Assembly: GCA_017988335.1 (NCBI GenBank)
Contig: JAGNRZ010000012.1
Coordinates: 1-34,321, forward strand
Length of the DNA stretch: 34,321 nucleotides
Direction: 5' to 3'
Source: Ferruginibacter sp.
GTDB taxonomy: Bacteria; Bacteroidota; Bacteroidia; Chitinophagales; Chitinophagaceae
The translations under genes were made by a program, and so were the position numbers. The notes beneath the pieces are model-generated. The model saw nothing but the letters and a program-made list of their open reading frames with translations. It searched no databases and was not told the DNA's origin. Positions 688 to 32,300 of this stretch are shown in pieces (positions within the stretch are counted from its first letter, which is position 1; every line of letters begins with the position of its first letter).

Positions 688-720
688 GCACTTTCAATTG
701 AAAGTGCTTTTTTGTTTTTT
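688..720 (+). terminator. Intrinsic terminator after the lipocalin-like gene
   Basis: Bases 688-707 form a perfect palindrome (GCACTTTC AATT GAAAGTGC: 8-bp stem, 4-base loop). A T-rich run interrupted by one G follows directly at 708-720. This is a textbook rho-independent terminator for the rightward gene. The leftward TonB receptor gene converges on it and its stop codon lies at 720, so the hairpin may also protect that transcript, although on that strand it has no U-tract. Confidence 0.85.
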
Positions 721-3074: not shown

Positions 3075-3086
3075 CAACTATATTTT

Positions 3087-3118
3087 TGTACGATGTACGA
3101 TTTAGGTGTACGTAGTAC
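3087..3118 (+). repeat. Heptamer repeat TGTACGA x2 plus degenerate units
   Basis: TGTACGA occurs twice in tandem (3087-3093, 3094-3100). It is followed by TTTAGGTGTACGTAGTAC, which keeps the GTAC core but is degenerate. The element lies 12 bases upstream of the receptor start codon, in its leader. The same heptamer occurs on the opposite strand at 10837-10843. Confidence 0.7.
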
Positions 3119-3150
3119 TATTTAAAATAACTTTACTATCCAAAAAATTC

Positions 3151-3258
3151 CATCAACCATCAACCATCAACCATCAACCATCAACCATCAACCATCAACC
3201 ATCAACCATCAACCATCAACCATCAACCATCAACCATCAACCATCAACCATCAACCAT
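3151..3258 (-). repeat. 15-copy perfect heptamer array (CATCAAC / GTTGATG)
   Basis: Fifteen perfect tandem copies of CATCAAC span 3151-3255, plus a partial CAT. On the minus strand, the strand of both neighbouring genes, the array reads TGGTTGA repeated. It begins 3 bases after the stop codon of the DUF3347 gene and ends about 75 bases before the TonB receptor start. Every unit carries an ATG and a TGA on the minus strand, so it can encode only four-residue peptides there. On the plus strand all frames are open and give an artefactual HQPSTIN heptapeptide repeat. Perfect identity of the copies implies recent expansion, so copy number probably varies between strains. Confidence 0.97.
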
Positions 3259-3962: not shown

Positions 3963-4052
3963 TGGTTCATGGATAATGGTTCATAGTTGTTAAACTTTAT
4001 AGAACTTACTCCATTGGATTACTATGAACAATGAACAATTAACTATCAACTA
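3963..4052. repeat. Two opposed degenerate heptamer arrays in the ABC-F leader
   Basis: On the plus strand 3963-3990 reads as four heptamers: TGGTTCA, TGGATAA, TGGTTCA, TAGTTGT. On the minus strand 4052-4025 reads TAGTTGA, TAGTTAA, TTGTTCA, TTGTTCA. The arrays face each other, and GTTCATAGT at 3979-3987 is the exact reverse complement of 4021-4029, so the leader RNA could fold. The right array ends one base before the ATG at 4054. The units resemble the TGGTTGA array at 3151-3258. Confidence 0.7.
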
Positions 4053-4053
4053 A

Positions 4054-6030
4054 ATGCTTTTAGGTTTACAAAACGCCACATTTGAATTTGGGGCAAGAAC
4101 AATTTTTGAAAACGCCACTTGGCATATACAACCCAATGAACGTATTGGATTAATTGGCTATAATGGTACAGGAAAATCTACCTTATTAAAGGTTTTAACT
4201 GGGCAATATAGCCTAAGTGCAGGCACTGTAGAAAAAGGCAGAGAAACTACTATTGGTTTTTTACATCAAGATTTATTGAGCTTTGATACGGAAGACAGCA
4301 TTTTGCAAGTAGCTATGGGTGCTTTTGAAAGAGTTTTACAAATTGAAAAAGAATTAGAAGACTTAGCAAAAGAGCTAGAAACAAATCCTACTGATGAATT
4401 GGGAATAAAGTATGCAGATTTATTGCATGAAATGGATGTACTAGATGGCTACAGTGTACACCACAAAACCGAAGAAATTTTACAAGGCCTAGGTTTTAGT
4501 AATGCAGATGTTCACCGCCCCTACAAAGAGTTTAGTGGAGGTTGGCGTATGAGAGTGTTATTAGCCAAAATGATTTTGATGGCACCTGATGTACTGTTAC
4601 TGGATGAACCTACCAATCACTTGGATTTACCTAGTATTGAATGGCTAGAAAAATATTTAATACACTATAAAGGCTCGGTAGTAATTGTAAGTCATGACCG
4701 TTTTTTCTTAGATAGAATGGTAAATAAAATTGTAGAAATTTATCAGCAAGAGTTACATATTTATAGCGGCAACTATACCTACTACCAAACTGAAAAGGCT
4801 GTACGTATTGAAATGCAAAAACGTGCCTTTGAAAATCAACAAGATTATATACGCCAGCAAGAACGGGTTGTAGAACGCTTTAAAGCCAAAGCTAGTAAAG
4901 CCGCTATGGCACAAAGTATAATTAAAAAATTAGATAAAATTGAACGTATTGAAGATACCAATTTAGAACGCCCAAATATTAAAATAAACTTTAGCATTGA
5001 CAAACAACCCGGAAAAGTTTTATGCACAGTAAAAGATATTAGCAAAAGTTTTGGTACTACTAAAATTGTGCAAAATACAGGTGCAGAAATTAATAGAGGT
5101 GATAAAATAGCTTTAATTGGTGCTAATGGAAAAGGAAAATCAACCTTATTAAGAATTGTAGCAGGTGTAGAGCCTTTTGAAGGTGGTGAACGAGTTTGGG
5201 GGCATAATGTGGTAGATGCTTTTTATGCTCAACATCAATTAGAAGCGTTGAATATTGAAAACCCCATTTTAGAAGAAATGGAAAGAGCTGGTAGTGGCAA
5301 AACTACCCTAGAGCTTCGTACATTAATGGGTTGTTTTTTATTTGGCGGAGATGATATTGATAAAAAAATTAAAGTACTTAGTGGTGGTGAAAAAGCTAGA
5401 GTAGCTTTAGCCAAAACTATTGTAAGTAAAGCCAATTTTTTATTGTTGGATGAGCCTACCAATCACTTAGATATGCACTCTGTAGAGTTGTTAATTGAGG
5501 CGTTAAATAAATATGAAGGCAGTTTTATTTTAGTAAGTCACGATAGATATTTTGTAAGCAAAACAGCCAATAAAATTTGGGAGATAGACAACTACGAAAT
5601 AAAAGAATTTAATGGCGGCTACGATGAGTGGATGGAATGGAAGGAAAGACAGGCGGCTAATGCTGTTGCAGGGGATAAAGTAAATAGTGTAAATAAAGTA
5701 GAAAAGGTAAATAAAGTAATAGAAACTGTAGTAACACCAACAGAAACCCCTAAGCCCCAAACAGCCCAGCCTATAGATAAAGAGCTTAAGAAAGAATTAC
5801 AAAAACATAAAAACCGTTTTACACAATTAGAGGATAAAATTGCAGCTATAACTAAAACAAAAGCAGATTTAGAAGCACAATTAGCACAACCCGATGTTTT
5901 AGCCGATAGAACTAAATTTGTAGTAGCAGAAAAAGCCTATAACGATGCTGTTTTAGAATTAACTATTTTAAATGGCGAATACGAAACTGTATTTGAAAAG
6001 GTGATGGAGTTGGAAGAGAAGATGGGGTAA
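4054..6030 (+). CDS. ABC-F family ribosome-associated ATPase (Uup/YheS-like)
   Basis: A soluble 658-residue protein with two ABC ATPase domains and no membrane segment. Domain 1 has Walker A GYNGTGKS (35-42), signature FSGGWRMR (about 160) and Walker B LLLDEPTNHLD (about 180-190). A charged helical P-site linker (about 255-305, QQDYIRQQERVVERFKAKAS) follows. Domain 2 has Walker A GANGKGKS (about 355), signature LSGGEKARVALAK and a second LLLDEPTNHLD. The C-terminal coiled coil (about 585-655) is the extension of Uup- and YheS-type members. ABC-F proteins act in the ribosomal E site; some relieve stalling and others give antibiotic resistance. The spacer before the coiled coil contains five in-frame nonamers at 5680-5724 encoding VNS-VNK-VEK-VNK-VIE, an unusual repeat insertion. 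Housekeeping translation factor is likelier than a resistance protein because the linker is of the ordinary type. Confidence 0.93.
   Translation: MLLGLQNATFEFGARTIFENATWHIQPNERIGLIGYNGTGKSTLLKVLTGQYSLSAGTVEKGRETTIGFLHQDLLSFDTEDSILQVAMGAFERVLQIEKELEDLAKELETNPTDELGIKYADLLHEMDVLDGYSVHHKTEEILQGLGFSNADVHRPYKEFSGGWRMRVLLAKMILMAPDVLLLDEPTNHLDLPSIEWLEKYLIHYKGSVVIVSHDRFFLDRMVNKIVEIYQQELHIYSGNYTYYQTEKAVRIEMQKRAFENQQDYIRQQERVVERFKAKASKAAMAQSIIKKLDKIERIEDTNLERPNIKINFSIDKQPGKVLCTVKDISKSFGTTKIVQNTGAEINRGDKIALIGANGKGKSTLLRIVAGVEPFEGGERVWGHNVVDAFYAQHQLEALNIENPILEEMERAGSGKTTLELRTLMGCFLFGGDDIDKKIKVLSGGEKARVALAKTIVSKANFLLLDEPTNHLDMHSVELLIEALNKYEGSFILVSHDRYFVSKTANKIWEIDNYEIKEFNGGYDEWMEWKERQAANAVAGDKVNSVNKVEKVNKVIETVVTPTETPKPQTAQPIDKELKKELQKHKNRFTQLEDKIAAITKTKADLEAQLAQPDVLADRTKFVVAEKAYNDAVLELTILNGEYETVFEKVMELEEKMG
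5680..5724 (+). repeat. GTAAATAAA nonamer repeat inside the ABC-F gene
   Basis: Five contiguous nonamers: GTAAATAGT, GTAAATAAA, GTAGAAAAG, GTAAATAAA, GTAATAGAA. They are in frame and encode Val-x-Lys-like triplets in the flexible spacer between the second ATPase domain and the C-terminal coiled coil. Closely similar nonamers occur at 11856-11900 in rnr and at 18475-18501. Confidence 0.85.
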
Positions 6031-6040
6031 CAAAAATTTC

Positions 6041-6068
6041 GAATTTTTGAATTGTGAATTTTGAATAA
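6041..6068 (+). repeat. Short degenerate heptamer array (TGAATTG-type)
   Basis: After GAATTTT come three heptamers in phase: TGAATTG (6048-6054), TGAATTT (6055-6061), TGAATAA (6062-6068). It lies 10 bases after the ABC-F stop codon. Low-complexity AT-rich DNA can mimic this, so I rate it below the other arrays. Confidence 0.45.
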
Positions 6069-6096
6069 ATTGAGCTTTACATCAGTAAATTAAGCA

Positions 6097-6453
6097 ATGA
6101 AAAAGTTATGTACAATATTATTTCTAGTCTTTTTATTAGTTATTAATACTAAAGCTCAAAAACTTCCTAAAGGAGGTACATATTTTTTAGATTTTATTGA
6201 TATGGAATATCAAGGCAAAAAGTATGGTACTTGCAAAGCCGTTGTAAAAGGTAATAGAATTAAATTGTATGTTGTAAAAGGTTGTTATCAAAAGCCAGGA
6301 ATGTTAATAGAAGAAGGCATTTTATTAATCCATAAATCCGGCAAAATAATAATTGGGGGAAAGAAAACTGATAGAAATGCCACAGAAATTGGCGGATGTA
6401 GCGATGGCCCTAGAATTATTGATTTTAAAAAGAAAAGATATGAAACTTGCTAG
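6097..6453 (+). CDS. Small secreted protein of unknown function
   Basis: A 118-residue protein with a clear Sec signal peptide: Lys-Lys, a hydrophobic core to about residue 18, and a probable cleavage after TKAQ at 21. The mature part of about 97 residues is basic. It is rich in Gly and beta-branched residues and holds four Cys residues (in GTCKAV, KGCYQK, GGCSDG and the terminal ETC), which could form two disulfides in the periplasm. I do not recognise the family. The SGNH hydrolase gene starts 21 bases downstream on the same strand, so the two are probably co-transcribed and may both act outside the cytoplasm. No promoter box of the TAnnTTTG type is visible upstream; read-through from the ABC-F gene is possible. 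Confidence 0.65.
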   Translation: MKKLCTILFLVFLLVINTKAQKLPKGGTYFLDFIDMEYQGKKYGTCKAVVKGNRIKLYVVKGCYQKPGMLIEEGILLIHKSGKIIIGGKKTDRNATEIGGCSDGPRIIDFKKKRYETC

Positions 6454-6474
6454 TTTTTTTAATTTTAACATGCA

Positions 6475-7194
6475 ATGAAAAATAAATACAAAATATTTTC
6501 TCTTATTTTATTAGTTATTTTAGTGTCAATAATAATTAAAGAGAACTACATTCCCAGATTAAAACAAAAACTATTTTCCGATACTAGCTTAACATACTTT
6601 ACAAATAGCCCTTATTACAAAGAAAAACTTAGTAAATATGACATTTACAGTAAGCAAGCCAATATTGTAATGCTAGGCACTTCATTTACAGACGATATTG
6701 ATTGGAACGAATTATTGAATAGAAATGATGTAATTAATAGAGGTATTGGTGCTACTACTATTGCTACCATGCTTGATAGAATGCCCTATGTACTAAAACT
6801 AAAGCCTAAAATATGTTTTATTGAAGGTGGTATTAATGATATAGATAATAATATTTTACTTGATACTTCTATAAAGCAATTGGAAACAATTGTAGATATT
6901 TTACAAAAAGATTCGATAACAGTAGTACTAACCGCTATAACTTATTTAGCGGATATAGCCCCCAACTATAAAAAACGAAATGAAAAAATTACAGCCTTTA
7001 ATTCTGAACTTTTAAAATTAGCAAAGCAAAAAAACTGTACCCTTATTAATACAAATACAACAATGGCTCCCAATAATTTACTACGTAAAGATTTATGCAA
7101 GTACGATGGATTACATTATTTACCTGCTGCATATTTATTGTGGAAACAAGAGATTGAGAAGGTATTGAAAGCAAAGGGATATAAGCCTATTTAA
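6475..7194 (+). CDS. SGNH/GDSL-family hydrolase, membrane-anchored
   Basis: A 239-residue protein with an N-terminal hydrophobic segment (about 7-22) that anchors it in the inner membrane or acts as a signal. All four SGNH blocks are present: nucleophile Ser70 in LGTSFTDD, Gly90 in INRGIGATT, Asn121 in GGINDID, and Asp211/His214 in YDGLHY. It is therefore predicted to be an active esterase or deacetylase acting in the periplasm, for example on acylated sugars or lipids, but the substrate cannot be told. It follows the small secreted protein by 21 bases. Its last 8 bases overlap the 3' end of the convergent DUF2027-Smr gene, leaving no room for a separate terminator. Length and motif order are typical of single-domain SGNH hydrolases. 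Confidence 0.85.
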   Translation: MKNKYKIFSLILLVILVSIIIKENYIPRLKQKLFSDTSLTYFTNSPYYKEKLSKYDIYSKQANIVMLGTSFTDDIDWNELLNRNDVINRGIGATTIATMLDRMPYVLKLKPKICFIEGGINDIDNNILLDTSIKQLETIVDILQKDSITVVLTAITYLADIAPNYKKRNEKITAFNSELLKLAKQKNCTLINTNTTMAPNNLLRKDLCKYDGLHYLPAAYLLWKQEIEKVLKAKGYKPI

Positions 7195-8197
7195 ACCAAA
7201 TTTCCGTAGCACCAAAACCATACAAATGATGGTATTGGTTTACAAATGTTTTTACTTCTTTTTTTGTTTTTAATATCTCATGTATTTCATCTCTAAGCAC
7301 ACCCTCTCCTACACCATGTATAATTATTAAATTGGGCTGCCTATGAGCCACTGCTAAATCATAAAACTTTTCAAAGGTTTTTAATTGTAAGCTTACAATT
7401 TCAAAATTACTCATGTGCATATAACTATCTGTAATTTTTTCTATGTGTAAATCCACTACACTCCTTGCAGGCTCTAAATGCTGGCGTACTTTACTGGCAT
7501 CGTAAATTTTAAAACCAGCATTGCCAAGTTTGCTTAAATCAATTTTTTCTTCTTCAACTTTATTAGGGTAAGTATCAAACAATAAATAACCAAACGCAGC
7601 CTCGTTTTTAAGCTGTATTTCTTCTATCTTTTTAAACAGTTGTTTAGCTTTAAGTTTTAAAGATGTTTCGTAAAAAGGAGCTTTTGTTTTGTCTTCGTTT
7701 TTTAAAGAAAACTCAAAATCAAACCTTGGGCTATCGCTTAAGTCCTCAAAAGCCATATCATGCAAGTAAAAATCAGCAAAAGGTTCAATGGTGTTTTTTA
7801 ATTGAAATACACTATCACCACCTATCATGCAATTGTAGGTAAAGTGGTATGGGGTATGGCTTTGATTGATGATATGAATTTTTAATTTTTCCACTACATC
7901 ATCATCAAAAATATCTTTATCAAATACAGGCAAAAAATTTAGAATAACGCCTTCTTCTTTTTTGGGTTGAGTTACTACTTTTTCTTTACGTACTTGGTCA
8001 ATATAAACCTTCTTTTTTTCTACAGGCTTTTTTTGGGTAAACATTTTAAAGTAAGGAAAATCTATTTGCTCCATATAAGCCGGAAACCGAACTCCTTTCA
8101 CTTCAATCATCACCATTTTTTCGTTAATAATTTCAACTACTTGGCCTTCTTCATCTGTAAGTAGTACTATTATTTTGTCGCCTATTTCGTATTTCAT
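7187..8197 (-). CDS. DUF2027 and Smr domain protein
   Basis: A soluble 336-residue protein. The N-terminus (about 1-60, starting MKYEIGDKIIVLLTDEEGQV) is the small beta-rich DUF2027 module; a Lys-rich spacer and a beta-rich middle domain follow. The C-terminal Smr domain (about 245-336) carries both hallmark motifs, DLHIEK at 249 and HGVGEGVLR at 294. Smr domains, first seen at the end of MutS2, are nucleases or nucleic-acid-binding modules; some cleave mRNA at stalled ribosomes. The combination with DUF2027 is a Bacteroidota architecture often loosely annotated as a MutS2-like protein. A TAnnTTTG box lies about 24 bases upstream. The gene converges on the SGNH hydrolase gene with an 8-base overlap. 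Domain assignment is firm; the role in DNA recombination versus RNA quality control is open. Confidence 0.88.
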   Translation of the reverse strand: MKYEIGDKIIVLLTDEEGQVVEIINEKMVMIEVKGVRFPAYMEQIDFPYFKMFTQKKPVEKKKVYIDQVRKEKVVTQPKKEEGVILNFLPVFDKDIFDDDVVEKLKIHIINQSHTPYHFTYNCMIGGDSVFQLKNTIEPFADFYLHDMAFEDLSDSPRFDFEFSLKNEDKTKAPFYETSLKLKAKQLFKKIEEIQLKNEAAFGYLLFDTYPNKVEEEKIDLSKLGNAGFKIYDASKVRQHLEPARSVVDLHIEKITDSYMHMSNFEIVSLQLKTFEKFYDLAVAHRQPNLIIIHGVGEGVLRDEIHEILKTKKEVKTFVNQYHHLYGFGATEIWFK

Positions 8198-8220
8198 ATT
8201 CTCCTATCCTAATTAGGTGG

Positions 8221-8228
8221 CAAAGTTA
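8221..8228 (-). promoter_or_regulatory. -7 promoter box TAACTTTG for the DUF2027-Smr gene
   Basis: The minus strand reads TAACTTTG, an exact TAnnTTTG match, 24 bases upstream of the ATG at 8197. No clear -33 element is visible. The rest of the spacer up to 8489 (about 290 bases) holds no recognisable gene or hairpin, only an ACCGCAGAGAAAAGAGG stretch reminiscent of Bacteroidota intergenic repeats. Confidence 0.5.
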
Positions 8229-8489
8229 CATGATTTATTCACCGCAGAGAAAAGAGGAAAAAGACCTACCTGTCGGCATACAGATTTTTTTGTAGAATAT
8301 GTAAGAGGTATTGCTGATATTTTTTAGAACTACGATAACTTTACTTTATAACCTTATCCAGTTTGCTAAAAGGTATAATGAATTGATTTAATAATTGGAT
8401 ATTAATGTTTACTATTTATTTAAACCTTGTATTCAAAAAGACCGAATATTACTAGAAATACATTTATAAACAGCTATATTTAACAGCAC

Positions 8490-9026
8490 TCAAACATAAA
8501 TTTTGGTCATAGCATCTTGTTCTATTTCTATTTTTTTTGAGCTTAGTTGTATAACTTTCTGAATAAAATTTGCTAAAATATTTTTATCAAATACATTTCT
8601 TGCTATTACTATTGTTTTCTTGTTTTTAAAAAATAACTTAAAAGAATCAGTAAATGGCAAGAAGTGAATGGATTCGAGTTCTTCCAAGTCGAATTCTTTA
8701 ACGTACCATCCATTGTAAATTAACTTAGTGTCTCTAATTAAATATGATTTGTAATTAATTTTTTTTGCCAGAAGGTATTCATAAAATAGTACCGATATAC
8801 TAAAAATTGAGAAAATTGTAAACCCTATATCACTCCAATTAGTTAAAATAATAATTAAAAGGAAGACGACCCAAATAAAAGTCTTCCAAGACAATTCATT
8901 TCTCTTTTCTTCAATTGCAAAATCAAAGTCAAAAACTCTGCTTGATACCTTCTTTTTAAGATAAGTACCCACTAAAAGGGAAACTACTAAAAACGATATA
9001 GCTACAATATAAAAAAAGGCGTTCAT
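8490..9026 (-). CDS. Small membrane protein with a possible PH-like C-terminal domain
   Basis: 178 residues. Three hydrophobic segments (about 4-22, 48-63 and 67-86) suggest three membrane spans. The cytoplasmic C-terminal half (about 95-178) reads as alternating short beta strands (SYLIRDTKLIYNGWYVKEF, ESIHFLPF, FKLFFKNKKTIVIARN) and a final amphipathic helix (ILANFIQKVIQL). That layout resembles bacterial PH-domain membrane proteins that report on their own surface or bind partners, but no diagnostic motif is present, so the function is unknown. It starts 18 bases after the stop codon of the amino-acid permease gene on the same strand and is probably its operon partner. The stretch downstream (8198-8489) shows no terminator. 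Confidence 0.65.
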   Translation of the reverse strand: MNAFFYIVAISFLVVSLLVGTYLKKKVSSRVFDFDFAIEEKRNELSWKTFIWVVFLLIIILTNWSDIGFTIFSIFSISVLFYEYLLAKKINYKSYLIRDTKLIYNGWYVKEFDLEELESIHFLPFTDSFKLFFKNKKTIVIARNVFDKNILANFIQKVIQLSSKKIEIEQDAMTKIYV

Positions 9027-9044
9027 AGTATAGTCACTTACAAT

Positions 9045-10757
9045 TTAATTACCACCAGCCAATTTACTCTTCTTATATCCATACATAAAATAAACCAACA
9101 AGCCAATGGCTAACCAGCCCATAAACCATGCCCAGTTAGCTGCCGTCATACCTGTAAGCAAGTACAAACAAGTAGTTAAGCCCAACAATGGAATTAACGA
9201 CCAGTTTTTTATAAATGCAAGGGCAGAAAGAATGATACAAGCCAACCAGAAAATAATGGCTGAAATATTAAAGGTAAGGTTCACATCTTTTCCAGAAAAA
9301 TTAAACAAGCTGCTGAAGTAATTAGGTGAAAATATGGCTAGTAAAGCAATTGCTCCTGCTACTATTAAAGGAAAAATAAACTTACTATTAATGTAAGGCA
9401 GGTTAAATCTACCTTCTGTTTTTTCTTTACGTGGTATTAATAAAACACCCCCACACACTAGTACAAAAGCAAATAGTGTGGCAATACTTGTAAAATCAAG
9501 TACAAAGGTTTTATCTGTAAACAAAATTGGTAAACCTACCACTACACCTGTTACAATGGTTGCAAAACTTGGGGTTTTAAACTTAGGGTGAATTTTTTGA
9601 AATATAGGTGGCAACAAACCATCTCTACTCATGCTCATCCAAATACGAGGTTGTCCCATTTGAAATACAAGTAACACACTTGTCATGGCTACTACTGCAC
9701 AAATAGACACTAAAAACTGCATCCACCCTACATTTAAGTTTTGCTTTTCAAAAATAAAAGATAGAGGATCGCCTACACCATCAAAATTTTTGTAATGCAC
9801 AGCACCCGATAATACTAACGTTAGCAAAATATAAACTACTGTACAAATCACTAACGAATAAATCATTCCTTTTGGTAAATCTCTTTGTGGATTTTTACTT
9901 TCTTCTGCCAATACACTTACTGCATCAAAACCTATATAGGCAAAGAATACACCTGCCACTGCCGCCATTACCCCACTAAATCCATTAGGCATAAATGATT
10001 TTACGCCTTCGTCATTAGCAGGTGTCCAGTTAACAGTTAATCCATTTGAAAAAACAAAATAACCGCCAACTAAAATAACTAAAGCCACCACTGCCATTTT
10101 TAATACTACCATTACATTGCTAAAGTTTCTACTCTCTTTAATTCCTCTATAAACCAAATAGGTAATTAATACATTAATAACCAATGCAGGTAAATCAAAA
10201 ATTAAACGTAAACCACCTAACATAGGTGCTGTATTCCAAGCATTAATATCATCTGCATTTCCGCTACTTGCCACTGCATTTTTTGCTTCGCTATGGCTTG
10301 TGCTTAACCAATGTGGAATATGCACTCCTACTTTATCTAAAAAAGATGTGAAATAATCACTCCAGCTAAAGGCTACATAAATATTACCAATGCTATATTC
10401 CATTATTAAAGCCCAGCCAATTATCCAAGCAAATAATTCGCCAAAACTAGCATAAGCATAAGTGTATGCACTACCTGCTACCGGAATACGACTAGCAAAC
10501 TCACTATAACAAAATGCAGTAAATGCACAGGCAATGGCTGTAATTATAAAAAGTACAACTACTCCAGGTCCGCCATTAAAAACAGCACCACCAAGGCTAC
10601 TAAAACTACCAGCACCTAAAATAGCTGCAATACCAAAAAAAGTTAAATCTCTTACTGTTAATACTCTTTTTAATCCACCGCCTGCACCATGGGTATCATC
10701 GCCACCTTCGGATAAAATAGTTGATATTTTTTTTGTTCTAAATAATGAATTAGACAT
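9045..10757 (-). CDS. APC-superfamily amino-acid permease (cationic amino-acid transporter type)
   Basis: A 570-residue polytopic inner-membrane protein with about 12-14 hydrophobic helices. The first helix carries the APC substrate-site motif as FGIAAILGAGSFSSLGG. Helix 3 has YSEFASRIPVAGSAYTYAY, and the consensus sequence after helix 6 is FFAYIGFDAVSVLAEE followed by SKNPQRDLPKGM. These are hallmarks of the cationic amino-acid transporter branch of the APC family, which imports amino acids with protons or by exchange. The usual Gly-Ile at the unwound helix-1 site is Gly-Ser-Phe here, so the substrate may not be cationic. Length is above the roughly 480-500 usual for this branch because of extended loops (about 140-160). 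It lies downstream of the polyprenyl synthase gene by 112 bases and just before a small membrane protein. Confidence 0.9.
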   Translation of the reverse strand: MSNSLFRTKKISTILSEGGDDTHGAGGGLKRVLTVRDLTFFGIAAILGAGSFSSLGGAVFNGGPGVVVLFIITAIACAFTAFCYSEFASRIPVAGSAYTYAYASFGELFAWIIGWALIMEYSIGNIYVAFSWSDYFTSFLDKVGVHIPHWLSTSHSEAKNAVASSGNADDINAWNTAPMLGGLRLIFDLPALVINVLITYLVYRGIKESRNFSNVMVVLKMAVVALVILVGGYFVFSNGLTVNWTPANDEGVKSFMPNGFSGVMAAVAGVFFAYIGFDAVSVLAEESKNPQRDLPKGMIYSLVICTVVYILLTLVLSGAVHYKNFDGVGDPLSFIFEKQNLNVGWMQFLVSICAVVAMTSVLLVFQMGQPRIWMSMSRDGLLPPIFQKIHPKFKTPSFATIVTGVVVGLPILFTDKTFVLDFTSIATLFAFVLVCGGVLLIPRKEKTEGRFNLPYINSKFIFPLIVAGAIALLAIFSPNYFSSLFNFSGKDVNLTFNISAIIFWLACIILSALAFIKNWSLIPLLGLTTCLYLLTGMTAANWAWFMGWLAIGLLVYFMYGYKKSKLAGGN

Positions 10758-10816
10758 GTTGGTTTTGGTTTGAACTAGAAAATTAAGAAAATAATTGTAT
10801 TAATGGAAAAATAATA

Positions 10817-10858
10817 GTGTTAGATTATTTAAAGCATCGTACATCCAACATCTAACAC
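10817..10858 (-). terminator. Possible terminator or hairpin after the polyprenyl synthase gene, containing heptamers
   Basis: GTGTTAGAT at 10817-10825 pairs with ATCTAACAC at 10850-10858: a 9-bp stem around a 24-base loop. In the leftward transcript it is followed by TATTATTTTT. The downstream arm is part of a heptamer run on the minus strand, TGTTAGA-TGTTGGA-TGTACGA (10857-10837). The large loop makes it a weak terminator, so the permease may still be co-transcribed. Confidence 0.4.
10837..10857 (-). repeat. Heptamer array TGTTAGA-TGTTGGA-TGTACGA
   Basis: Three contiguous heptamers on the minus strand share TGT and a terminal GA. The third is identical to the units at 3087-3100. It starts about 12 bases after the stop codon of the polyprenyl synthase gene. 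Confidence 0.65.
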
Positions 10859-10869
10859 AGTACATAACC

Positions 10870-11835
10870 TTAACTCTCCCTCTCCATCAAATACATAGCT
10901 AAATCGAGTAGTGGCTTTTTACGAACGGAAAGCACTGCTACATCTTCTAAATTTTTAAGGGCGGCTTGGTAATAATTGCCTTTTAATTGATTTGCCCATT
11001 CATCAACTCCGCAAGCTTTATATAAGGATAACATTTGCTCAATTTTATCATCATTGTTGGAGGTAAGCAAATTTTCTATCTGTTGTTTTTGAGAAGCATC
11101 TGCAACTTCTAAAGCATGTAGCAATAAAAATGTTTTTTTATTGGCTAATATATCGCCTCCTACTTGTTTGCCAAATTTATCGGGGTTGCCAAAGGCGTCT
11201 AAATAATCGTCTTGTATTTGAAAAGCAATGCCTAAGTTTTTTCCAAAGTTGTAAATGTGTTGCTGATTACCTTCGCCAGCACCGCCAATTATTGCACCCA
11301 ACTGTAAACTTGCAGCTAGCAATACTGATGTTTTCAACGTAATCATTTTAATGTACTCCTCAATTCCAACATCATTTCTGTTTTCAAAATCCATATCTAT
11401 CTGTTGCCCCTCACATACTTCTTTGCTAGTTTTATTAAATAGGCTTATAATTTTTTGTACATAGCCCATATCTATTCTGGTTAAATAATCGTAAGCTTGA
11501 GCAAACATTACATCACCAGCTAGTAAAGCGGTAGCATCACCATATTTTGCATGTACCGTTTGCATACCTCTACGCAACGGTGCTTTATCCATAATATCGT
11601 CGTGTATTAAACTAAAGTTGTGAAATAGTTCAATAGCCGAAGCCACCTGCCAAGCATCATTATTTATTTCATCAAATAATTCGTTACCCATTAATACACA
11701 AACAGGGCGTACTCTTTTACCGCCAATGGCTAAAATATATTGAGCAGCATCGTATAATGTTGTTGGTTGTTGAGGAAAATGTCGTTTATTAAATTTTTCT
11801 TCAAATTGTTTGGCTAACTCTAAAAAAGAATACAT
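10870..11835 (-). CDS. Trans-polyprenyl diphosphate synthase (farnesyl/geranylgeranyl type)
   Basis: A soluble 321-residue all-helical enzyme that condenses isopentenyl diphosphate with allylic diphosphates to make isoprenoid precursors for quinones, carotenoids or lipid carriers. The first Asp-rich motif is DDIMD at 79-83, followed by KAPLRRG. The second is DDYLD at 209-213 in AFQIQDDYLDAFG, followed by GGDILANKKTFLLL. There is no insertion in the first Asp-rich motif and Phe74 sits five residues before it. In the family this arrangement is associated with type I geranylgeranyl synthases, so a C20 product is slightly favoured over C15. The start codon lies 2 bases after the rnr stop, so the two are translated from one message. 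Exact chain length cannot be fixed from sequence alone. Confidence 0.9.
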   Translation of the reverse strand: MYSFLELAKQFEEKFNKRHFPQQPTTLYDAAQYILAIGGKRVRPVCVLMGNELFDEINNDAWQVASAIELFHNFSLIHDDIMDKAPLRRGMQTVHAKYGDATALLAGDVMFAQAYDYLTRIDMGYVQKIISLFNKTSKEVCEGQQIDMDFENRNDVGIEEYIKMITLKTSVLLAASLQLGAIIGGAGEGNQQHIYNFGKNLGIAFQIQDDYLDAFGNPDKFGKQVGGDILANKKTFLLLHALEVADASQKQQIENLLTSNNDDKIEQMLSLYKACGVDEWANQLKGNYYQAALKNLEDVAVLSVRKKPLLDLAMYLMERES

Positions 11836-11837
11836 GT

Positions 11838-13847
11838 TTATTTTTTCTTTGCTTTACTACTTACTTTATTTACTCTAGTTACTTTCTCTACTTTACTTAC
11901 TTTTCCATTCACCCATTCATAATCTAATTGTCGCTTACCTAAATTGGCTGCCACTACTTTTATTTTTACCTTATCTCCCATTCTAAACTTTTGCTTTGTT
12001 CTCAATCCTACTAAAGCATAGTCGGCTTCATCTAATCTAAAATCATCGTAATCACTTAAATGCTGTACCGATACCATGCCTTCACATTTATGCTCTACTG
12101 TTTCTACAAAAAAGCCAAAAGCCGCAACACCACTTATTATTCCTTCAAACTCATCTCCTAAAAATTGCTGCATAAACTCAACTTGCTTATATTTATTTCC
12201 AGCCCTTTCTGCTTCCATTGCCTTACGTTCTTTATCGCTACAGTGCTTACACTTCTCATCCATTTTTTTATCAAGCTTCAAATTTTTATCTAGGCAATCT
12301 TGCAAAATGCGATGTACCATTACATCAGGATATCTACGTATGGGTGAGGTAAAATGGCAGTAGTGTTCAAAGCCTAATCCATAATGCCCAATATTTTCAG
12401 AAGTATAAATTGCTTTTGCCATAGTACGAATGCCCAATTGCTCTAACACATGTTGCTCTGGCTTACCGTGTACTTCTTTTAATAATTTATTAAAGGATTG
12501 GGCTACCGCTTTTTCATCCTTCATATCAAACTTGTAACCAAATTTTTTGGCAAATGCTACAAATGGTTTTAGCTTTTCCTCTCCTGGAGTATCATGTATT
12601 CTATAAGGGAATGGTATTGGCTCTTTATTAATTTTTATTTTAGAAATGTATTCGGCCACAGTTCTATTAGCCAATAGCATAAACTCCTCGATTAACTTAT
12701 GAGCTTCTTTACTTTCTTTAACCACTATGCCTAGTGGCTTACCATTTTCATCTAATTTAAAACGTACTTCTTGCGATGAAAAATTTATAGCCCCATTATT
12801 AAATCTTTCTTTTCTAAATCGTTGTGCTAAATCATTCAGCAATAAAATAGGCTTAAAATGAAGACCTTCTTTTCTTTCTATAATTTCTTGTACTTCTTCG
12901 TATGTAAATCTATGATTACTGTGTATTAAAGTACGTCCAATCCACTTATGTTTTATCTCTCCTTTATTAGTAATTTGAAAAACACAACTAAACGTATATT
13001 TATCTTCGTGAGGTCGTAAACTACAAAGCTCATTACTAATTTTTTCTGGCAACATAGGGTTTACCCTATCTGGCAAGTACACACTTGTTGCTCTTGCATA
13101 AGCACTTTTATCCAAAACCGAATCTTGTGTTACAAAGTGGCTAACATCGGCAATATGCACCCCAATTTCGTAACAACCATTATCTAAATTTCTAATAGAA
13201 ATAGCATCGTCAAAATCTTTGGCATCTACAGGGTCAATGGTAAATGTAAGTATGTCTCTAAAATCTTTTCTTTTTCTAATTTCTTCCCTAGTAATTTTAT
13301 CCTCCAACACATTTGCAGCTTTCATTACATCATCATCAAAGCCAATAGGAAAACCTGCATCAATCAAAATTTCTTTCATGGCAAAATCGTTAATATTTTC
13401 TGCCGTTATTACATTAAGCACTTCTCCTTCTGGTTTTTTATCTGCCTTATCCCACTTCACTAATTTTACTATTACCCTATCGCCATCAACTGCACCATTT
13501 ATTTTTTCTGATGGAATAAAAAAGTCAGGCATTAGCTTTTCGGTATCTGCAGTAAAAAAAGCAAAATTTTTACTTACGCTTATACTTCCAATAAACTGGG
13601 TTTGCTTACGCTCAACTACTTCAACAATTTTACCTTCCTTTCTTTGATGATCGCTTTTATGCTTATCTACTTCTACCCTTACCACATCGCCATTAAAAGC
13701 CATACCAAAATCATTGGGTTTTACTTTAACATCTTTATCTTGCCCTTCTACAATTACAAAACCCATACCGCTGCGGCTTATATCAAGTACACCTTTAAGT
13801 AAGTTTTTGTGAGTTGTTTTCTTAGTAGTTTTTTTATTTTTACTCAT
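11838..13847 (-). CDS. rnr: Ribonuclease R (RNB family 3'-5' exoribonuclease)
   Basis: 669 residues, shorter than the 813 of Escherichia coli because the N-terminal helix-turn-helix region is absent. A cold-shock-type RNA-binding domain (about 18-75, SRSGMGFVIVEGQDKDVKV) and a second OB region precede the RNB catalytic domain (about 190-520). Its active-site Asp cluster is clear in DPVDAKDFDDAI, and HYCHFTSPIRRYPDVMVHR marks the distal part. An S1 domain (about 565-645, EGIISGVAAFGFFVE) follows. The enzyme degrades structured RNA in the cytoplasm. The C-terminal tail after YEWVNG is a nonamer-encoded run, VSK-VEK-VTR-VNK-VSS, then a basic SKAKKK end. The ATG directly follows a CCCC/GGGG palindrome. 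It is the first gene of a unit with the polyprenyl synthase. Confidence 0.95.
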   Translation of the reverse strand: MSKNKKTTKKTTHKNLLKGVLDISRSGMGFVIVEGQDKDVKVKPNDFGMAFNGDVVRVEVDKHKSDHQRKEGKIVEVVERKQTQFIGSISVSKNFAFFTADTEKLMPDFFIPSEKINGAVDGDRVIVKLVKWDKADKKPEGEVLNVITAENINDFAMKEILIDAGFPIGFDDDVMKAANVLEDKITREEIRKRKDFRDILTFTIDPVDAKDFDDAISIRNLDNGCYEIGVHIADVSHFVTQDSVLDKSAYARATSVYLPDRVNPMLPEKISNELCSLRPHEDKYTFSCVFQITNKGEIKHKWIGRTLIHSNHRFTYEEVQEIIERKEGLHFKPILLLNDLAQRFRKERFNNGAINFSSQEVRFKLDENGKPLGIVVKESKEAHKLIEEFMLLANRTVAEYISKIKINKEPIPFPYRIHDTPGEEKLKPFVAFAKKFGYKFDMKDEKAVAQSFNKLLKEVHGKPEQHVLEQLGIRTMAKAIYTSENIGHYGLGFEHYCHFTSPIRRYPDVMVHRILQDCLDKNLKLDKKMDEKCKHCSDKERKAMEAERAGNKYKQVEFMQQFLGDEFEGIISGVAAFGFFVETVEHKCEGMVSVQHLSDYDDFRLDEADYALVGLRTKQKFRMGDKVKIKVVAANLGKRQLDYEWVNGKVSKVEKVTRVNKVSSKAKKK
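11856..11900 (-). repeat. GTAAATAAA-type nonamer repeat inside the rnr 3' end
   Basis: On the minus strand: GTAAGTAAA, GTAGAGAAA, GTAACTAGA, GTAAATAAA, GTAAGTAGT. Five in-frame nonamers encode the Val-x-Lys tail of RNase R. They have the same core and frame as the run in the ABC-F gene at 5680-5724. Confidence 0.85.
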
Positions 13848-13850
13848 AAC

Positions 13851-13872
13851 CCCAAACCCCTAAAGGGGCTTT
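13851..13872. repeat. CCCC-TAAA-GGGG palindrome abutting the rnr start codon
   Basis: CCCCTAAAGGGG at 13857-13868 lies within CCCCAAACCCCTAAAGGGGC. On the rnr strand it reads AGCCCCTTTAGGGGTTTGGGGTT and ends directly at the ATG. It could form a small hairpin covering the ribosome entry site. It is related in style to the CCCCCTGAAGGGGG elements at 22508 and 22604. Confidence 0.6.
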
Positions 13873-14043
13873 AATTGTGTTTTGTTATTAAAATATTTGT
13901 TTGTCGCCAGTTGTATTTTTTTCAGCTTCATTGGCAACAGCTGTTTATTATTTTTTTTCTTTTAGTAAAGAGATAAAAAATAATCACCCTAGTACTATAT
14001 ATCTTTATTCAACTTTTATATTAGTGTAAATTAAAAGCACAAA

Positions 14044-14068
14044 TAATTTGTGATAATCTATGTAATCT

Positions 14069-14071
<3 letters not shown>
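14044..14071 (+). repeat. TAATCTGTG-type nonamer repeat before the MFS gene
   Basis: TAATTTGTG (14044-14052), one extra A, then TAATCTATG (14054-14062) and TAATCTGTG (14063-14071). The outermost possible GTG start of the MFS gene (14069) lies inside it. A related ATC(T/A/C)G nonamer run occurs next to lepA at 32370-32397. Confidence 0.6.
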
Positions 14072-16706
<2,635 letters not shown>

Positions 16707-16713
16707 ACAATAT

Positions 16714-17730
16714 ATGAACAGAAGAAAATTTTTAAATCTTTCAGCTTTAGCAGCCCCATTAATTCTTACCAAAAAAACTATTGCAAATAATTTACAAGGT
16801 GTAAACAAACCTATTGTTGTAAGTACTTGGGATAGTGGTATGCCTGTTAATGAAGCAGCATGGAAAATTTTAGGTAAAGGAGGCAGCTCTATTGATGCCA
16901 TTGAAGCAGGTGCTATACATATTGAAAATGAAATTAATTGTTGTGTAGGGTTAGGTGGTTACCCAGATAGAGATGGTATTGTAACACTTGATGCCTGCTT
17001 AATGGATCATAACGCCAACTGCGGTGCTGTAGCTGGTTTAGAGCGAATTAAACATCCTATTTCTGTAGCTAGAAAAGTAATGGAAAAAACACCACATGTT
17101 ATTTTGGTAGGCAATGGTGCACAACAGTTTGCTGTGGAAAATGGCTTTACATTAGAAAGTGGTGAGCTATCGCAAGATGGAAAAAATGCGTATGCTGAGT
17201 GGCTTAAAAAAAGTGAATACAAGCCTATCATCAATATTGAACGGAAAAAAGAAAACGGCCCTTTTGCACCTAATTTTTTTGAAGATGGAACTGCTAATCA
17301 TGACACAATGGGATTAGTAGCCATGGATGCAAAAGGTAATTTAAGTGGCGGTGTTACTACTAGTGGCATGGCATTTAAAGTGCATGGCAGAGTTGGCGAT
17401 TCTCCCATTATAGGTGCAGGCTTGTTTGTAGATAATGAAATAGGAGCCGCTACTAGCAGCGGTGTTGGCGAAGAAGTTATTCGTATTTGTGGCACTCATT
17501 TAGTTGTTGAATTTATGCGGCAGGGATATAGCCCAGAAATGGCTTGCAAAAAAGCAGTTGAACGTATTGTAAAAAGAGATAGAAAAAAAGCAAAAACATT
17601 GCAAGTAGGTTTTTTAGCCCTAAATAAAAAAGGGCAATATGGTGGGTATGCAATACAAAAAGGTTTTGTATTTAGTGTAAAAAGCAAGAGTGAAACTAAA
17701 ATGTATGAATCAAAATTTTCAATTAGTTAA
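16714..17730 (+). CDS. N4-(beta-N-acetylglucosaminyl)-L-asparaginase (glycosylasparaginase)
   Basis: A 338-residue Ntn-hydrolase precursor. An exported-type N-terminus (NRRKFLNLSALAAPLIL) targets it to the periplasm. The mature part begins with VVSTWD at 36-40, the Trp-containing substrate loop. The autocleavage site is NHD/TMG, making Thr198 the N-terminal nucleophile of the beta chain. Arg226 and Asp229 in HGRVGDSPIIGAG and the following ATSSGVGEE complete the family pattern. It hydrolyses the GlcNAc-Asn bond left after proteolysis and deglycosylation of N-glycoproteins, releasing a 1-amino sugar (then GlcNAc) and aspartate. Length matches the Elizabethkingia enzyme class. Its stop codon overlaps the cutC start as TAATG. 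Confident assignment. Confidence 0.92.
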   Translation: MNRRKFLNLSALAAPLILTKKTIANNLQGVNKPIVVSTWDSGMPVNEAAWKILGKGGSSIDAIEAGAIHIENEINCCVGLGGYPDRDGIVTLDACLMDHNANCGAVAGLERIKHPISVARKVMEKTPHVILVGNGAQQFAVENGFTLESGELSQDGKNAYAEWLKKSEYKPIINIERKKENGPFAPNFFEDGTANHDTMGLVAMDAKGNLSGGVTTSGMAFKVHGRVGDSPIIGAGLFVDNEIGAATSSGVGEEVIRICGTHLVVEFMRQGYSPEMACKKAVERIVKRDRKKAKTLQVGFLALNKKGQYGGYAIQKGFVFSVKSKSETKMYESKFSIS

Positions 17731-18455
17731 TGGAACATAAACTTGAAGTAATAGGATTTGATATTAATGGATGTATAGCTGCTGAAAGAGCTGGAGCCGA
17801 TAGAATAGAGTTATGTGCAAGCCCTGCCGAGGGTGGAACAACACCATCTTATGGTTTAATTAAACTAGCAAAGGATAAATTAAACATTGATGTTTTTCCC
17901 ATTATAAGACCTAGAGGTGGAGATTTTTTGTACAATGATGAAGAATTTGAAGTAATAAAGTCGGAAATAAAAGTTTGTAAAGTTTTTGGTTGCAATGGTG
18001 TGGTTATTGGCATGCTTAATGCCAATGGAACAATTGATAAAGAACGATGCAAACAATTGGTGGCTTTAGCTCATCCTTTACCAGTAACTTTTCATAGAGC
18101 ATTTGATAGAGTAATAGATGCAGCACAAGCATTAGAAGATGTTATAGAAATTGGTTGTAAACGAATTTTAACTTCTGGTTTAAAGCCAACAGTAGTAGAT
18201 GGAGCATCTACCTTAACACAATTAATTAAACAAGCCAATAAAAGAATAATAATCATGCCCGGCAGTGGTGTTAGAAGCGATAATATTGAAGCATTAGCTA
18301 AATCTACAGGTGCAATTGAGTTTCATACATCTGCAAGAATGTTAGTTGAAAGCAACATGAATGCAACTAATGTTGATATGAAGGAAGAATTAAAATCTGT
18401 TGCAGTTGATGAAAATGAAGTAAAAAAGATAAAAGATATTTTAAATAATTTGTAA
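17730..18455 (+). CDS. cutC: CutC family TIM-barrel protein
   Basis: A soluble 241-residue protein, the usual CutC length. Family hallmarks are LEVIGFDINGCIAAERAGAD, RIELCASPAEGGTTPSYGL, IIRPRGGDF, VTFHRAFDR and MPGSGVRSDNI with EFHTSARM near the end. The fold is a TIM barrel. CutC was named for a copper-tolerance phenotype, but in Escherichia coli that phenotype was later traced to the small RNA MicL encoded within the gene, so the protein's own activity is unsettled. Here it sits between glycosylasparaginase and a phosphatase-superfamily gene, with TAATG stop-start overlaps at both ends, inside an amino-sugar operon. This context favours a sugar- or metabolite-processing role over copper handling; that is inference. 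Confidence 0.92.
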   Translation: MEHKLEVIGFDINGCIAAERAGADRIELCASPAEGGTTPSYGLIKLAKDKLNIDVFPIIRPRGGDFLYNDEEFEVIKSEIKVCKVFGCNGVVIGMLNANGTIDKERCKQLVALAHPLPVTFHRAFDRVIDAAQALEDVIEIGCKRILTSGLKPTVVDGASTLTQLIKQANKRIIIMPGSGVRSDNIEALAKSTGAIEFHTSARMLVESNMNATNVDMKEELKSVAVDENEVKKIKDILNNL

Positions 18456-19537
18456 TGAAATTATCAAAAGCCACTTTATTTACTCTATTTACATTATTTA
18501 CTTTCATTGCAGCTGCACAAAAAGTTGAGAATATAATTATTATTACAACAGATGGCTTAAGGTGGCAGGAGTTATTTGGAGGCATGGATAGTGCAATTGC
18601 AAACAACGCTAAATATAACCAAGGTGATAGTAGTTTGCTATTTGAAAAATACTGGGCAGCCACTGCACAAGAAAGGCGTAAAAAGTTATTACCATTTTTA
18701 TGGAGTACAATACAACAAAATGGGCAATTACATGGCAATAGAACAATTGGCAATAAAGTAGATGTAGCCAATCCGTATTGGTTTAGTTACCCTGGCTACA
18801 GCGAAATTTTTACTGGCTATGTAGATACTTTAGTTAATAGCAATGAGTATAAAGCTAATCCAAATACTACCCTGCTTGAATTTTTAAACAAACAAAATAG
18901 TTTTAAAAACAAAGTAGCTGCTTTTGGTGCTTGGAATGCATTTAATAGAATTTTAAATGAAGAAAGAAGTGGCATTACAGTAATTAATGCATTTGAAAAA
19001 TCTCCCTTAAAAAATAACAATGCTATTTTATTGAATAAGGTATTGGAAGATAGCTATAAGCCTTTTGGAGAAGCAGAGTGTTTAGATGTATTTACACACT
19101 ACGCTGCAATGGATTATTTGAAAATAAAAAAACCTAAAGCATTATATATTTCTTATGGCGAAACAGATGAGTGGGCTCACAGTGGGCAATACAGAGATTA
19201 TTTGAATGCTGCAAACCAAGTGGATAAATGGATAGAAAGCATTTGGAATTACATACAATCTACCCCACAATACAAAAATAAAACGGCTTTATTTATTACT
19301 ACAGACCATGGAAGAGGTGATAGCATTAAAAAAGAATGGACAAGCCACAATAATAAAATTGTAGGGGCAAATGAAATATGGTTTGCTGTTATGGCACCAG
19401 GCATACAAACAAAAGGCGAAGTAAAAACGAATACTCAACTTTATCAAAAACAATTTGCTCAAACGATGGCAAATCTATTAGGGCTTACGTTTACTTGTGA
19501 ACACCCGGTAGGTGAAAAAATTAATTTGAATGAGTAG
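18455..19537 (+). CDS. Alkaline-phosphatase-superfamily hydrolase (exported)
   Basis: 360 residues. The signal peptide (1-21, ending IAAAQ) is unusual: residues 8-16 are Leu-Phe-Thr three times, encoded by nonamers at 18475-18501. The mature protein shows the metal-hydrolase pattern: Asp33 in IIITTDGLRW, a likely Ser116 nucleophile in YPGYSEIFTGY, a second metal cluster in GETDEWAHSG (about 225-235) and TTDHGRGD (about 275-282), and a late His in WTSHNN. This is the arrangement of phosphodiesterase, phosphatase, sulfatase and phosphonate-hydrolase relatives, all acting on ester bonds outside the cytoplasm. Substrate unknown; in this operon a sulfated or phosphorylated glycan remnant is plausible. 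Its last 17 bases overlap the convergent kinase gene. Confidence 0.85.
   Translation: MKLSKATLFTLFTLFTFIAAAQKVENIIIITTDGLRWQELFGGMDSAIANNAKYNQGDSSLLFEKYWAATAQERRKKLLPFLWSTIQQNGQLHGNRTIGNKVDVANPYWFSYPGYSEIFTGYVDTLVNSNEYKANPNTTLLEFLNKQNSFKNKVAAFGAWNAFNRILNEERSGITVINAFEKSPLKNNNAILLNKVLEDSYKPFGEAECLDVFTHYAAMDYLKIKKPKALYISYGETDEWAHSGQYRDYLNAANQVDKWIESIWNYIQSTPQYKNKTALFITTDHGRGDSIKKEWTSHNNKIVGANEIWFAVMAPGIQTKGEVKTNTQLYQKQFAQTMANLLGLTFTCEHPVGEKINLNE
18475..18501 (+). repeat. Nonamer repeat TTTATTTAC inside a signal-peptide coding region
   Basis: TTTATTTAC, TCTATTTAC, ATTATTTAC in tandem. The first unit is the exact reverse complement of GTAAATAAA, the core unit of the ABC-F and rnr runs. Read in this orientation and frame the DNA encodes Leu-Phe-Thr repeats, which here form the hydrophobic core of a signal peptide. 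Confidence 0.8.
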
Positions 19538-32230: not shown

Positions 32231-32300
32231 TACAAAGAGCCGCAGTTTGCTATTAAAAAACTAGTTATGATTTATTTGGAAAGGCTGAATAAAAATTTTT

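Follow-up and report, generated by a model that had tools for sequence, protein, structure and literature searches.

The nonamer runs in this stretch of Ferruginibacter sp. DNA are probably detached arms of a hairpin element of the intervening-sequence (IVS) type that lies outside rRNA, with gene-less mini-hairpins and solo arms as its derivatives; we infer that the element spreads and that its protein binds the arms. Two of the 13 nonamer places in this genome are inverted arrays on either side of a single four-helix-bundle gene (contig C200), and three are in the window, the whole 34,321-nucleotide stretch that was analyzed.

Nonamer arrays in the window and in the genome

According to the original prediction, one nonamer repeat is built into three unrelated proteins and read in two orientations. 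All three runs are present (Table 1), and the third has its unit on the minus strand, such that the plus-strand gene, a metalloenzyme-superfamily match, translates it as MKLSKATLFTLFTLFTFIAAA (LFT three times) in a signal-peptide-like start. The window also contains matches to the arm units of two other four-helix cassettes of this genome, L229 on contig C102 (arm unit TTGGTGG) and L238 on contig C91 (arm unit TGTACGATGTTAGATGTACG). The overlapping pair of L238-unit matches lies directly downstream of the stop codon of a minus-strand ORF (10870-11835), which we take to be prenyl-synthase-like. No Rfam match was obtained at the gathering score in the window or in four array loci.

Table 1. Repeat arrays and arm-unit matches in the window.
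Feature	Position	Strand	Context
Nonamer array, 5 units, GTAAATAAA type	5680..5724	+	Translated VNSVNKVEKVNKVIE, linker of ABC-F gene 4054-6030
Nonamer array, 5 units	11856..11900	-	Translated VSKVEKVTRVNKVSS, C-terminal tail of RNase R (11838-13847, minus)
Nonamer array, 3 units	18475..18501	-	Opposite plus-strand gene 18455-19537
Heptamer array, CCATCAA x15.6 (TTGATGG on minus)	3150..3258	-	21/24 match to L229 arm unit TTGGTGG
Weak match, 16/20, to L238 arm unit TGTACGATGTTAGATGTACG	3087..3106	+	
Two overlapping matches (17/20, 16/20) to L238 unit TGTACGATGTTAGATGTACG	10838..10864	-	

Searching the 3.08 Mb draft genome with GTAAATARAGTARATARAGTARA at up to 2 mismatches returned 24 matches, which merged into 13 places, compared with 0 matches for the reversed pattern; at up to 3 mismatches, the counts were 43 and 7. 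Chance, including chance from codon bias, is thus rejected for this genome, while the prediction that such runs would be "many genome-wide" proved too strong for 13 places with three of them in one window. The same pattern gave 17 matches at up to 2 mismatches in 58 other genomes, 11 of them in G018, versus 14 for the reversed pattern, and is therefore at background level outside G018. In the search at up to 2 mismatches, 33 of the 35 other members of the genus had no match. Across 394 genomes of the family, a 26-nt nonamer pattern was positive in 23 and its reversed counterpart in none.

Seven of the 13 places lie outside ORFs or reach only the last codons of one. The other six lie in ORFs, where they are read without stops; the protein regions concerned are a linker, a loop, a tail and signal peptides, and reading frame and strand vary among the copies. 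We compared the RNase R and ABC-F loci of 30 of the 39 genus genomes for each gene, our own included. Apart from our own sequences, the aligned set comprised 29 tails of RNase R and 29 linkers of ABC-F, and none of them has the V-x-K triplets encoded by the nonamers; protein-level conservation is therefore rejected, in agreement with the original prediction. The predicted insertion fared less well. The nearest named relative (L108; RNase R 84% identical), whose genome has 0 nonamer matches, has a different RNase R tail of similar length, so that a simple insertion into RNase R is not shown. Furthermore, both regions, the RNase R tail and the ABC-F linker, are variable among all relatives examined (the linker across all 30 genus loci), and therefore no net insertion is shown.

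An S23p gene between nonamer arms

The gene between the inverted arrays on contig C200 encodes P0001, a protein of the 23S-rRNA intervening-sequence or S23p family (TIGR02436, 95.3 bits with a cut-off of 24; PF05635, 112.4 bits; PDB 2gsc, E = 3.3e-9). The cassette is located in a phenylacetate-type operon, between a PaaI-type thioesterase gene (profile above cut-off) and a PaaY-like gene (best match, below cut-off). Its arms, which have an arm-to-arm score of 33, are predicted to form a closing stem when the cassette RNA is folded (z -3.1), and five chosen mini-hairpins have predicted folding z values of -3.8 to -9.4. P0001 had no match in the phage collection searched, and the genes near the S23p cassettes examined are ordinary genes.

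Nine members of a set of 30 orthologues (64-100% identical) are all located upstream of a PaaY-like ORF and all have nonamer-like arms, whereas orthologues of ~55-66% identity are mostly adjacent to other genes. Arm-to-arm scores of these nine nonamer cassettes range from 9 to 33; we count the three below 16 against our reading, together with the orthologue of a pattern-positive genome, G220, whose arms are not nonamers. For the 30-member set as a whole, own-partner arms scored only moderately better than others (18.9 versus 12.6, median rank 4.5 of 29), with matched scores being lowered because the gene was misplaced at two clipped loci, L318 and L330.

The nonamer pattern and the cassette protein also coincide at the level of genomes. 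In a comparison that takes no account of phylogeny, the pattern was present in 9 of 15 genomes with an orthologue of at least 60% identity versus 14 of 379 others (8 of 15 without the match of G148, whose sole match is its cassette). The 6 of 15 genomes that have such an orthologue and no pattern match speak against the element. Nonamer counts comparable to those of our genome were not found in cassette-free relatives, with the exception of G176, which has 65 matches yet nonamer arms at 0 of its 4 S23p genes, a further adverse observation. Six-frame reading between a distant array pair of G176 (L440) revealed no evident S23p relic.

Inverted arms at S23p genes

Using HMM-derived gene coordinates and an arm threshold score of at least 20, we found matching inverted short-tandem arrays at 37 of 70 S23p genes (2 of 72 were dropped at contig ends) versus 7 of 274 other ORFs. 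Mismatched flank pairs reached this score in 1.4% of 4830 cases, and for 55 of the 70 genes the own partner arm was among the three best-scoring ones. A replicate set, for which 30 of 40 S23p matches were taken and one was dropped at a contig end, had matched arms at 13 of 29 genes versus 0 of 812 mismatched pairs, and a phylum-wide best-match set (30 loci of a longer list) had them at 9 of 30 versus 10 of 870. Among plasmid S23p genes, most of them cyanobacterial (8 of 11 records; three further Riemerella records were omitted), 6 of 8 scored at least 20, and in 7 of 8 the own partner arm outscored all mismatched ones. Counted against a general association are the genes under the threshold in the main, replicate and phylum-wide sets (33 of 70, 16 of 29 and 21 of 30, respectively); the S23p gene of Calothrix L491 has no arms. 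Cassettes with arms were seen in Bacteroidota, Cyanobacteria and Gemmatimonadota.

Arm similarity reached at least 18 in 47% (upstream) and 65% (downstream) of pairs from different genomes whose proteins are at least 60% identical, compared with 0.2% of pairs whose proteins show no match. The 7-9 nt unit tends to be common to orthologues, while other S23p subgroups have other 7-9 nt units, and close orthologous cassettes in relatives have similar units at the same site across genera.

Solo arrays of resident units

The arm units of resident cassettes are found again as solo arrays elsewhere in the genome. In 711 kb, which includes contigs chosen for nonamer matches or S23p genes, there were 8.1 places per own unit, 1.8 per unit of orthologous foreign cassettes and 0.31 per other foreign unit. 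In 305 kb, consisting of 40 contigs picked by number without regard to repeats, the corresponding values were 2.1, 0.5 and 0.04 (own versus foreign, p = 4e-7, or 3.5e-6 when the L229 unit is excluded). Places less than 100 nt apart were merged for these counts; per-strand counts of own units before merging were 8.5 and 2.25. Arrays of TTGGTGG are unchanged by reversal, which invalidates the reversed-query control for the L229 unit. The L237 unit gave a weak difference in one count (46 matches versus 25 reversed) and a clean one in the merged count (9 versus 0). Three of the eight own units, the nonamer included, were absent from the 305 kb sample, which weighs against the association.

Across the loci examined, 69 of 82 distinct nonamer arrays are outside ORFs, and 45 of these 69 start between -20 and +25 nt from a same-strand stop codon, compared with 54 of 438 random intergenic positions. 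These post-stop arrays are single arms or gene-less mini-hairpins, some of them preceding terminator-like hairpins. Since arrays often start right after a stop codon, the nonamer peptides are by-products of the element. The predicted dispersed, lineage-specific repeat is retained, whereas peptide addition as the point of the element is not, only 6 of 13 places being in ORFs.

Discussion

We favor an IVS-type element living outside rRNA. Its arms would pair in RNA (or single-stranded DNA) to form a stem around the S23p gene, and the S23p protein, which is related to the DGR accessory protein Avd, would recognize the arm unit of its own cassette. The arms, and hairpins that lack the gene, could then spread in trans, with slippage lengthening or shortening the arrays. 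Copies would survive between a stop codon and a terminator or between operon genes. Occasionally they would also survive within a protein (in a linker, a loop, a tail or a signal peptide), since 9-nt units leave the frame intact and four of the six frames contain no stops. Against the proposal, the loci examined revealed neither an insertion event nor an empty site, and neither target duplications nor polymorphism between strains.

More tentatively, S23p/four-helix proteins could be the trans-acting half of widespread self-spreading elements that have no known transposase or recombinase, with each lineage recognizing its own 7-9 nt unit. Many unexplained bacterial short tandem arrays might then be solo arms, and the 23S rRNA IVS a special case that landed in rRNA.

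The arrays could instead be RNA elements of 3'-UTRs or intercistronic regions that serve the host in stability, termination or translational control, with S23p proteins as regulators and the cassette domesticated rather than selfish. The location of arms right after stop codons, in some cases before terminator-like hairpins, and the strong predicted hairpins agree with this, as do the regulator-binding roles proposed for other heptamer families in excerpts of PMC4679880 and PMC2700814. The retention of cassettes at a single operon position across several genera likewise fits a domesticated regulatory element and counts against a spreading one. However, the copies within protein regions such as signal peptides, the patchy distribution, and the different neighbors of the ~55-66% identical orthologues make such a host function rather unlikely. 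Local slippage on short seeds is a well-known process, and units that are tandem and degenerate with varying copy numbers are consistent with it, the S23p gene being incidental or preferring to insert into existing arrays. We consider this improbable, since own-cassette units recur in the genome and foreign ones do not, left and right arms match far above mismatched pairs, and units are common to close orthologues across genera. Still less credible is a peptide-adding, expanding nonamer selected for its encoded residues: the six stop-free places in ORFs would suit it, but the other seven, the differences in frame and strand, the 69 of 82 arrays outside ORFs and the link to the cassette all speak against such selection. 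That AT-rich codon usage, signal peptides of low complexity and linkers rich in lysine produced the runs by chance can practically be dismissed given 24 matches versus 0 reversed and 33 of 35 other genus members without matches, even though the LFT-type signal peptides of some relatives (L220 in G459, L221 in G417) may be native and other genomes are at background outside G018.

Compared with known systems, an element with detached arms is closest in parts to several. The 23S rRNA IVS of Coxiella burnetii contains an S23p ORF, around which terminal inverted repeats close a stem; tandem heptamers precede the S23p start in strain-dependent number, and a mobile origin is discussed (excerpts of PMC4990558, where S23p proteins are stated to have no known function). 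The nonamer cassette resembles it in its S23p family protein and in terminal inverted repeats predicted to be able to close a stem. Unlike that IVS, it lies between protein genes (PaaI-type and PaaY-like) and not inside 23S rRNA, it has 7-9 nt tandem arrays on both sides, and solo arms and gene-less hairpins are dispersed in the genome. REP/REPIN-RAYT systems likewise have a gene between inverted repeats and solo copies elsewhere that are matched to the resident gene, but the partner gene here encodes a four-helix protein of the S23p family (TIGR02436/PF05635) rather than a Y1 HuH transposase, and the arms are tandem arrays rather than single palindromes. Rickettsia palindromic elements are similarly dispersed, in frame in unrelated proteins and between genes; they are long palindromes without tandem units and, to our knowledge, have no partner gene.

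The TAACTGA heptamers of Beggiatoaceae, Cyanobacteria and Bacteroidetes are also dispersed short tandem arrays, mostly intergenic near gene boundaries with some in ORFs, and patchy across phyla; unlike S23p cassettes, they have no partner gene described in the excerpts of PMC4679880, and its main text contains "intervening" and "S23" 0 times. The heptanucleotide multicopy elements of Geobacter metallireducens, interpreted as regulator-binding or RNA elements, comprise runs of four to five heptamers that lie both in genes and between them, with some classes paired. They likewise have no partner gene described in the excerpts of PMC2700814, whose main text contains "S23" and "four-helix" 0 times. 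In full-text literature that covered few subscription journals and no preprints, we found no description of S23p genes with inverted tandem arrays outside rRNA.

The association would tie puzzling bacterial short tandem repeats to a partner protein, with matching between unit and protein. It makes testable both the binding of the protein to its arm and binding as the driver of spread, RNA processing or regulation, and it shows how arms become part of a coding sequence, be it in a tail, a linker, a loop or a signal peptide.

Nonamer places in the genome

The three nonamer runs of the window were confirmed in the positions and with the encoded residues that the original prediction had given them (Val-Asn/Glu/Ser-Lys in the ABC-F linker and the RNase R tail, and Leu-Phe-Thr in the signal-peptide region of the gene at 18455-19537). 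When the whole draft genome (3.08 Mb in 261 contigs, the window being contig C173) was searched for GTAAATARAGTARATARAGTARA with up to 2 mismatches, 24 matches were obtained, which merged into 13 places (see table), while the reversed pattern gave none. The same search of 58 other genomes returned 17 matches, 11 of them in G018, a genome of the same genus, versus 14 for the reversed pattern; G018 aside, these matches are background. Named loci led to another 19 genomes, one of which, G066, gave 6 matches and 0 reversed. These forward and reversed counts rule out both AT-rich codon usage and common signal-peptide composition as the source of the nonamer numbers. In G018 (loci L039-L043), intergenic nonamer arrays were mixed with a longer dispersed CTATGTGTCCTATGTTCCTATGTGGTC-type repeat.

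RNase R had matches of up to 84% identity, many of them in Ferruginibacter MAGs, so the genome probably belongs to Ferruginibacter. RNase R tails and ABC-F linkers varied freely in alignments of 30 loci each, our own included, and the nonamer repeat was absent from the 29 other tails and 29 other linkers. The tail at the nearest named relative locus (L108) was of similar length and different sequence.

Places of the nonamer in the genome and of other arrays in the window
Feature	Place	Context
Nonamer in ORF, read VNK	5680-5724	ABC-F linker
Nonamer in ORF, read VNK	11856-11900	RNase R tail
Nonamer in ORF, read VNK	C30	386-aa membrane-protein-like ORF without Pfam match
Nonamer as LFT, opposite strand	18475-18501	signal-peptide-like start
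Nonamer as LFT, opposite strand	C10	signal-peptide-like start, histidine-phosphatase gene
Nonamer as LFT, opposite strand	C229	signal-peptide-like start, lipoprotein-like ORF
Nonamer outside ORFs or reaching last codons only	C2, C172, C218, C41, C221, C200 (two)
CCATCAA x15.6, perfect heptamer array	3150-3258	arm unit of resident S23p cassette L229 (21 of 24); near start of gene 720-3077, presumably TonB-type
Weak matches to arm unit of resident S23p cassette L238 (16-17 of 20)	10838-10864	just past stop of ORF 10870-11835 (minus)
Weak match to L238 arm unit (16-17 of 20)	3087-3106
Imperfect heptamer array	4021-4052	ends just 5' of ABC-F start codon
18-nt ACTACCGTAGTCTTAAAA-type unit in tandem	32200-32236; locus L205:6395-6437	unrelated to nonamer

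An S23p gene between nonamer arms

The two arrays on C200 are mutually inverted and lie on either side of a gene for a 129-aa protein. This protein is a four-helix-bundle S23p, of the family found in 23S-rRNA intervening sequences (95 bits for TIGR02436, whose cut-off is 24), and its nearest solved structure is 2gsc. We call an S23p gene between inverted short-tandem arrays (arms) a cassette, and an array away from any cassette a solo. In the predicted fold of the C200 cassette transcript, the arms form the closing stem (z -3.1). A PaaI-type thioesterase gene lies upstream (TIGR02286, above cut-off), and the gene downstream matches PaaY best in NCBIfam, at 232 bits where the cut-off is 320. 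Nine orthologues inspected first (64-100% identical) all had a PaaY-like ORF next downstream and nonamer-like arms of the GTAWATARA type, which were degenerate (arm-to-arm scores 9 to 33). Across the full orthologue set (55-100% identical), a PaaY-like ORF came next in 12 of 30; most of the remaining 18 had GTTGATAAG-like arms, and several precede genes that we take to resemble zwf or typA.

Matching arms across S23p genes

To score arms, the 250 nt downstream of a gene were reverse-complemented and aligned locally to the 250 nt upstream. The set comprised 72 S23p genes from this genome (10) and seven relatives, and 70 of these genes had usable flanks. The mean score was 21.3, compared with 12.0 for 274 other ORFs, and scores of at least 20 were reached by 37/70 S23p genes versus 7/274 other ORFs. 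Mismatched flanks of different S23p genes reached this score in 1.4% of 4830 pairs, and for 55 of the 70 genes the own partner flank was among the three best. The replicate, in six more family genomes, gave 13/29 genes versus 0/812 mismatched pairs. A phylum-wide search found the S23p family in 206 of 296 genomes, and 9 of its best 30 matches scored at least 20, versus 10/870 mismatched pairs.

Eleven plasmid records matched, and the S23p genes of eight were analysed. Six scored at least 20, and seven (five of six cyanobacterial genes and those of Gemmatirosa and Riemerella) outscored every mismatched partner; no arms were found in the flanks of the Calothrix plasmid gene. Four plasmid genes have neighbours from a single system on both sides, all in the same orientation (cas6/cas4 in two cases, cas10/cmr3, and an iron-sulfur pair), and a fifth is flanked by ribonucleotide-reductase genes in the opposite orientation. 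The cas cases (cyanobacterial plasmid loci L489, L490 and L493) place an inverted-array S23p gene inside CRISPR-Cas operons.

The arm unit varies among S23p subgroups (e.g. TTGGTGG, GTTTAGAGG, TTAATTGG-like and TGTACGATG-like), and orthologues from different genomes tend to have a common unit. Arm similarity was at least 18 in 47% (upstream) and 65% (downstream) of pairs whose proteins were at least 60% identical, in about 20% of pairs at 50-60% identity, and in 0.2% of pairs without a protein match. At L270 (G243:C6:15000-22200), with L261 and L246, three consecutive S23p genes within about 4 kb each have a different arm unit (GTAAATAAA, GTTAAAAGG and TAATTGG types).

Solo arrays and resident cassettes

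Solo arrays follow the resident cassettes of their own genome. Arms of up to 24 nt were searched with up to 4 mismatches in 711 kb (23%) of this genome, a sample partly chosen for its arrays, with places merged within 100 nt and each cassette's two arms counted. The eight own units averaged 8.1 places, 24 units of orthologous foreign cassettes 1.8 and 52 other foreign units 0.31 (reversed queries: 0.9, 0.1 and 0.25). In 305 kb from 40 contigs picked by number, these means were 2.1, 0.5 and 0.04 (reversed: 0.5, 0 and 0.1), and own units differed from foreign units (p=4e-7; p=3.5e-6 with the L229 unit removed). Own reversed matches came from the L229 unit, which is identical when read backwards. 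Three of the eight own units, the nonamer included, had no place in the 305 kb sample.

A 26-nt nonamer pattern was positive in 23 of 394 family genomes and its reverse in 0. Positives comprised 9 of the 15 genomes with an orthologue of the nonamer cassette at 60% identity or more, versus 14/379 others (p=6e-9 in a test that ignores phylogeny). G148 was positive at the cassette alone, and taking it out leaves 8/15; in G220, one of the nine, the orthologue has other arms. The strongest exception, G176, had 65 matches and nonamer arms on none of its 4 S23p genes, indicating that a resident nonamer cassette is not needed today; past loss of such a cassette is possible. Several G176 nonamers (e.g. 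at loci L439-L445) are near-perfect mini-hairpins at gene ends.

The loci analysed contained 82 distinct nonamer arrays. Of these, 69 lay outside ORFs (120 codons or more), and 45 of the 69 started -20 to +25 nt from a same-strand stop, compared with 54/438 random intergenic positions. An inverted partner lay within 120 nt for 26 of the 82. Several arrays were near-perfect mini-hairpins or single arms between a stop and a terminator-like hairpin, and in some cases the array itself supplied the stop codon. Five mini-hairpins that we selected had predicted folds with z of -3.8 to -9.4.

Interpretation

The cassette anatomy is that of an intervening sequence (IVS), with the S23p ORF within a stem of terminal inverted repeats. 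In contrast with rRNA IVSs, the cassettes here lie between protein genes and solo arms are dispersed. A report on the Coxiella IVS describes tandem heptamers ahead of the S23p start in strain-dependent number (PMC4990558), which fits this IVS reading. A 2023 paper (PMC10053308) points out a resemblance between PF05635 and Avd, a protein of diversity-generating retroelements, and this likeness hints at a possible RNA-linked route of spread. The ABC-F and RNase R peptides would be left-type arms translated in the only sense frame that is open, and the three signal peptides would come from right-type arms lying a short way into their genes. Some use of the element is favoured by cassettes retained at one site across genera, and spread by solos that differ between genomes; putative use and spread may both hold.
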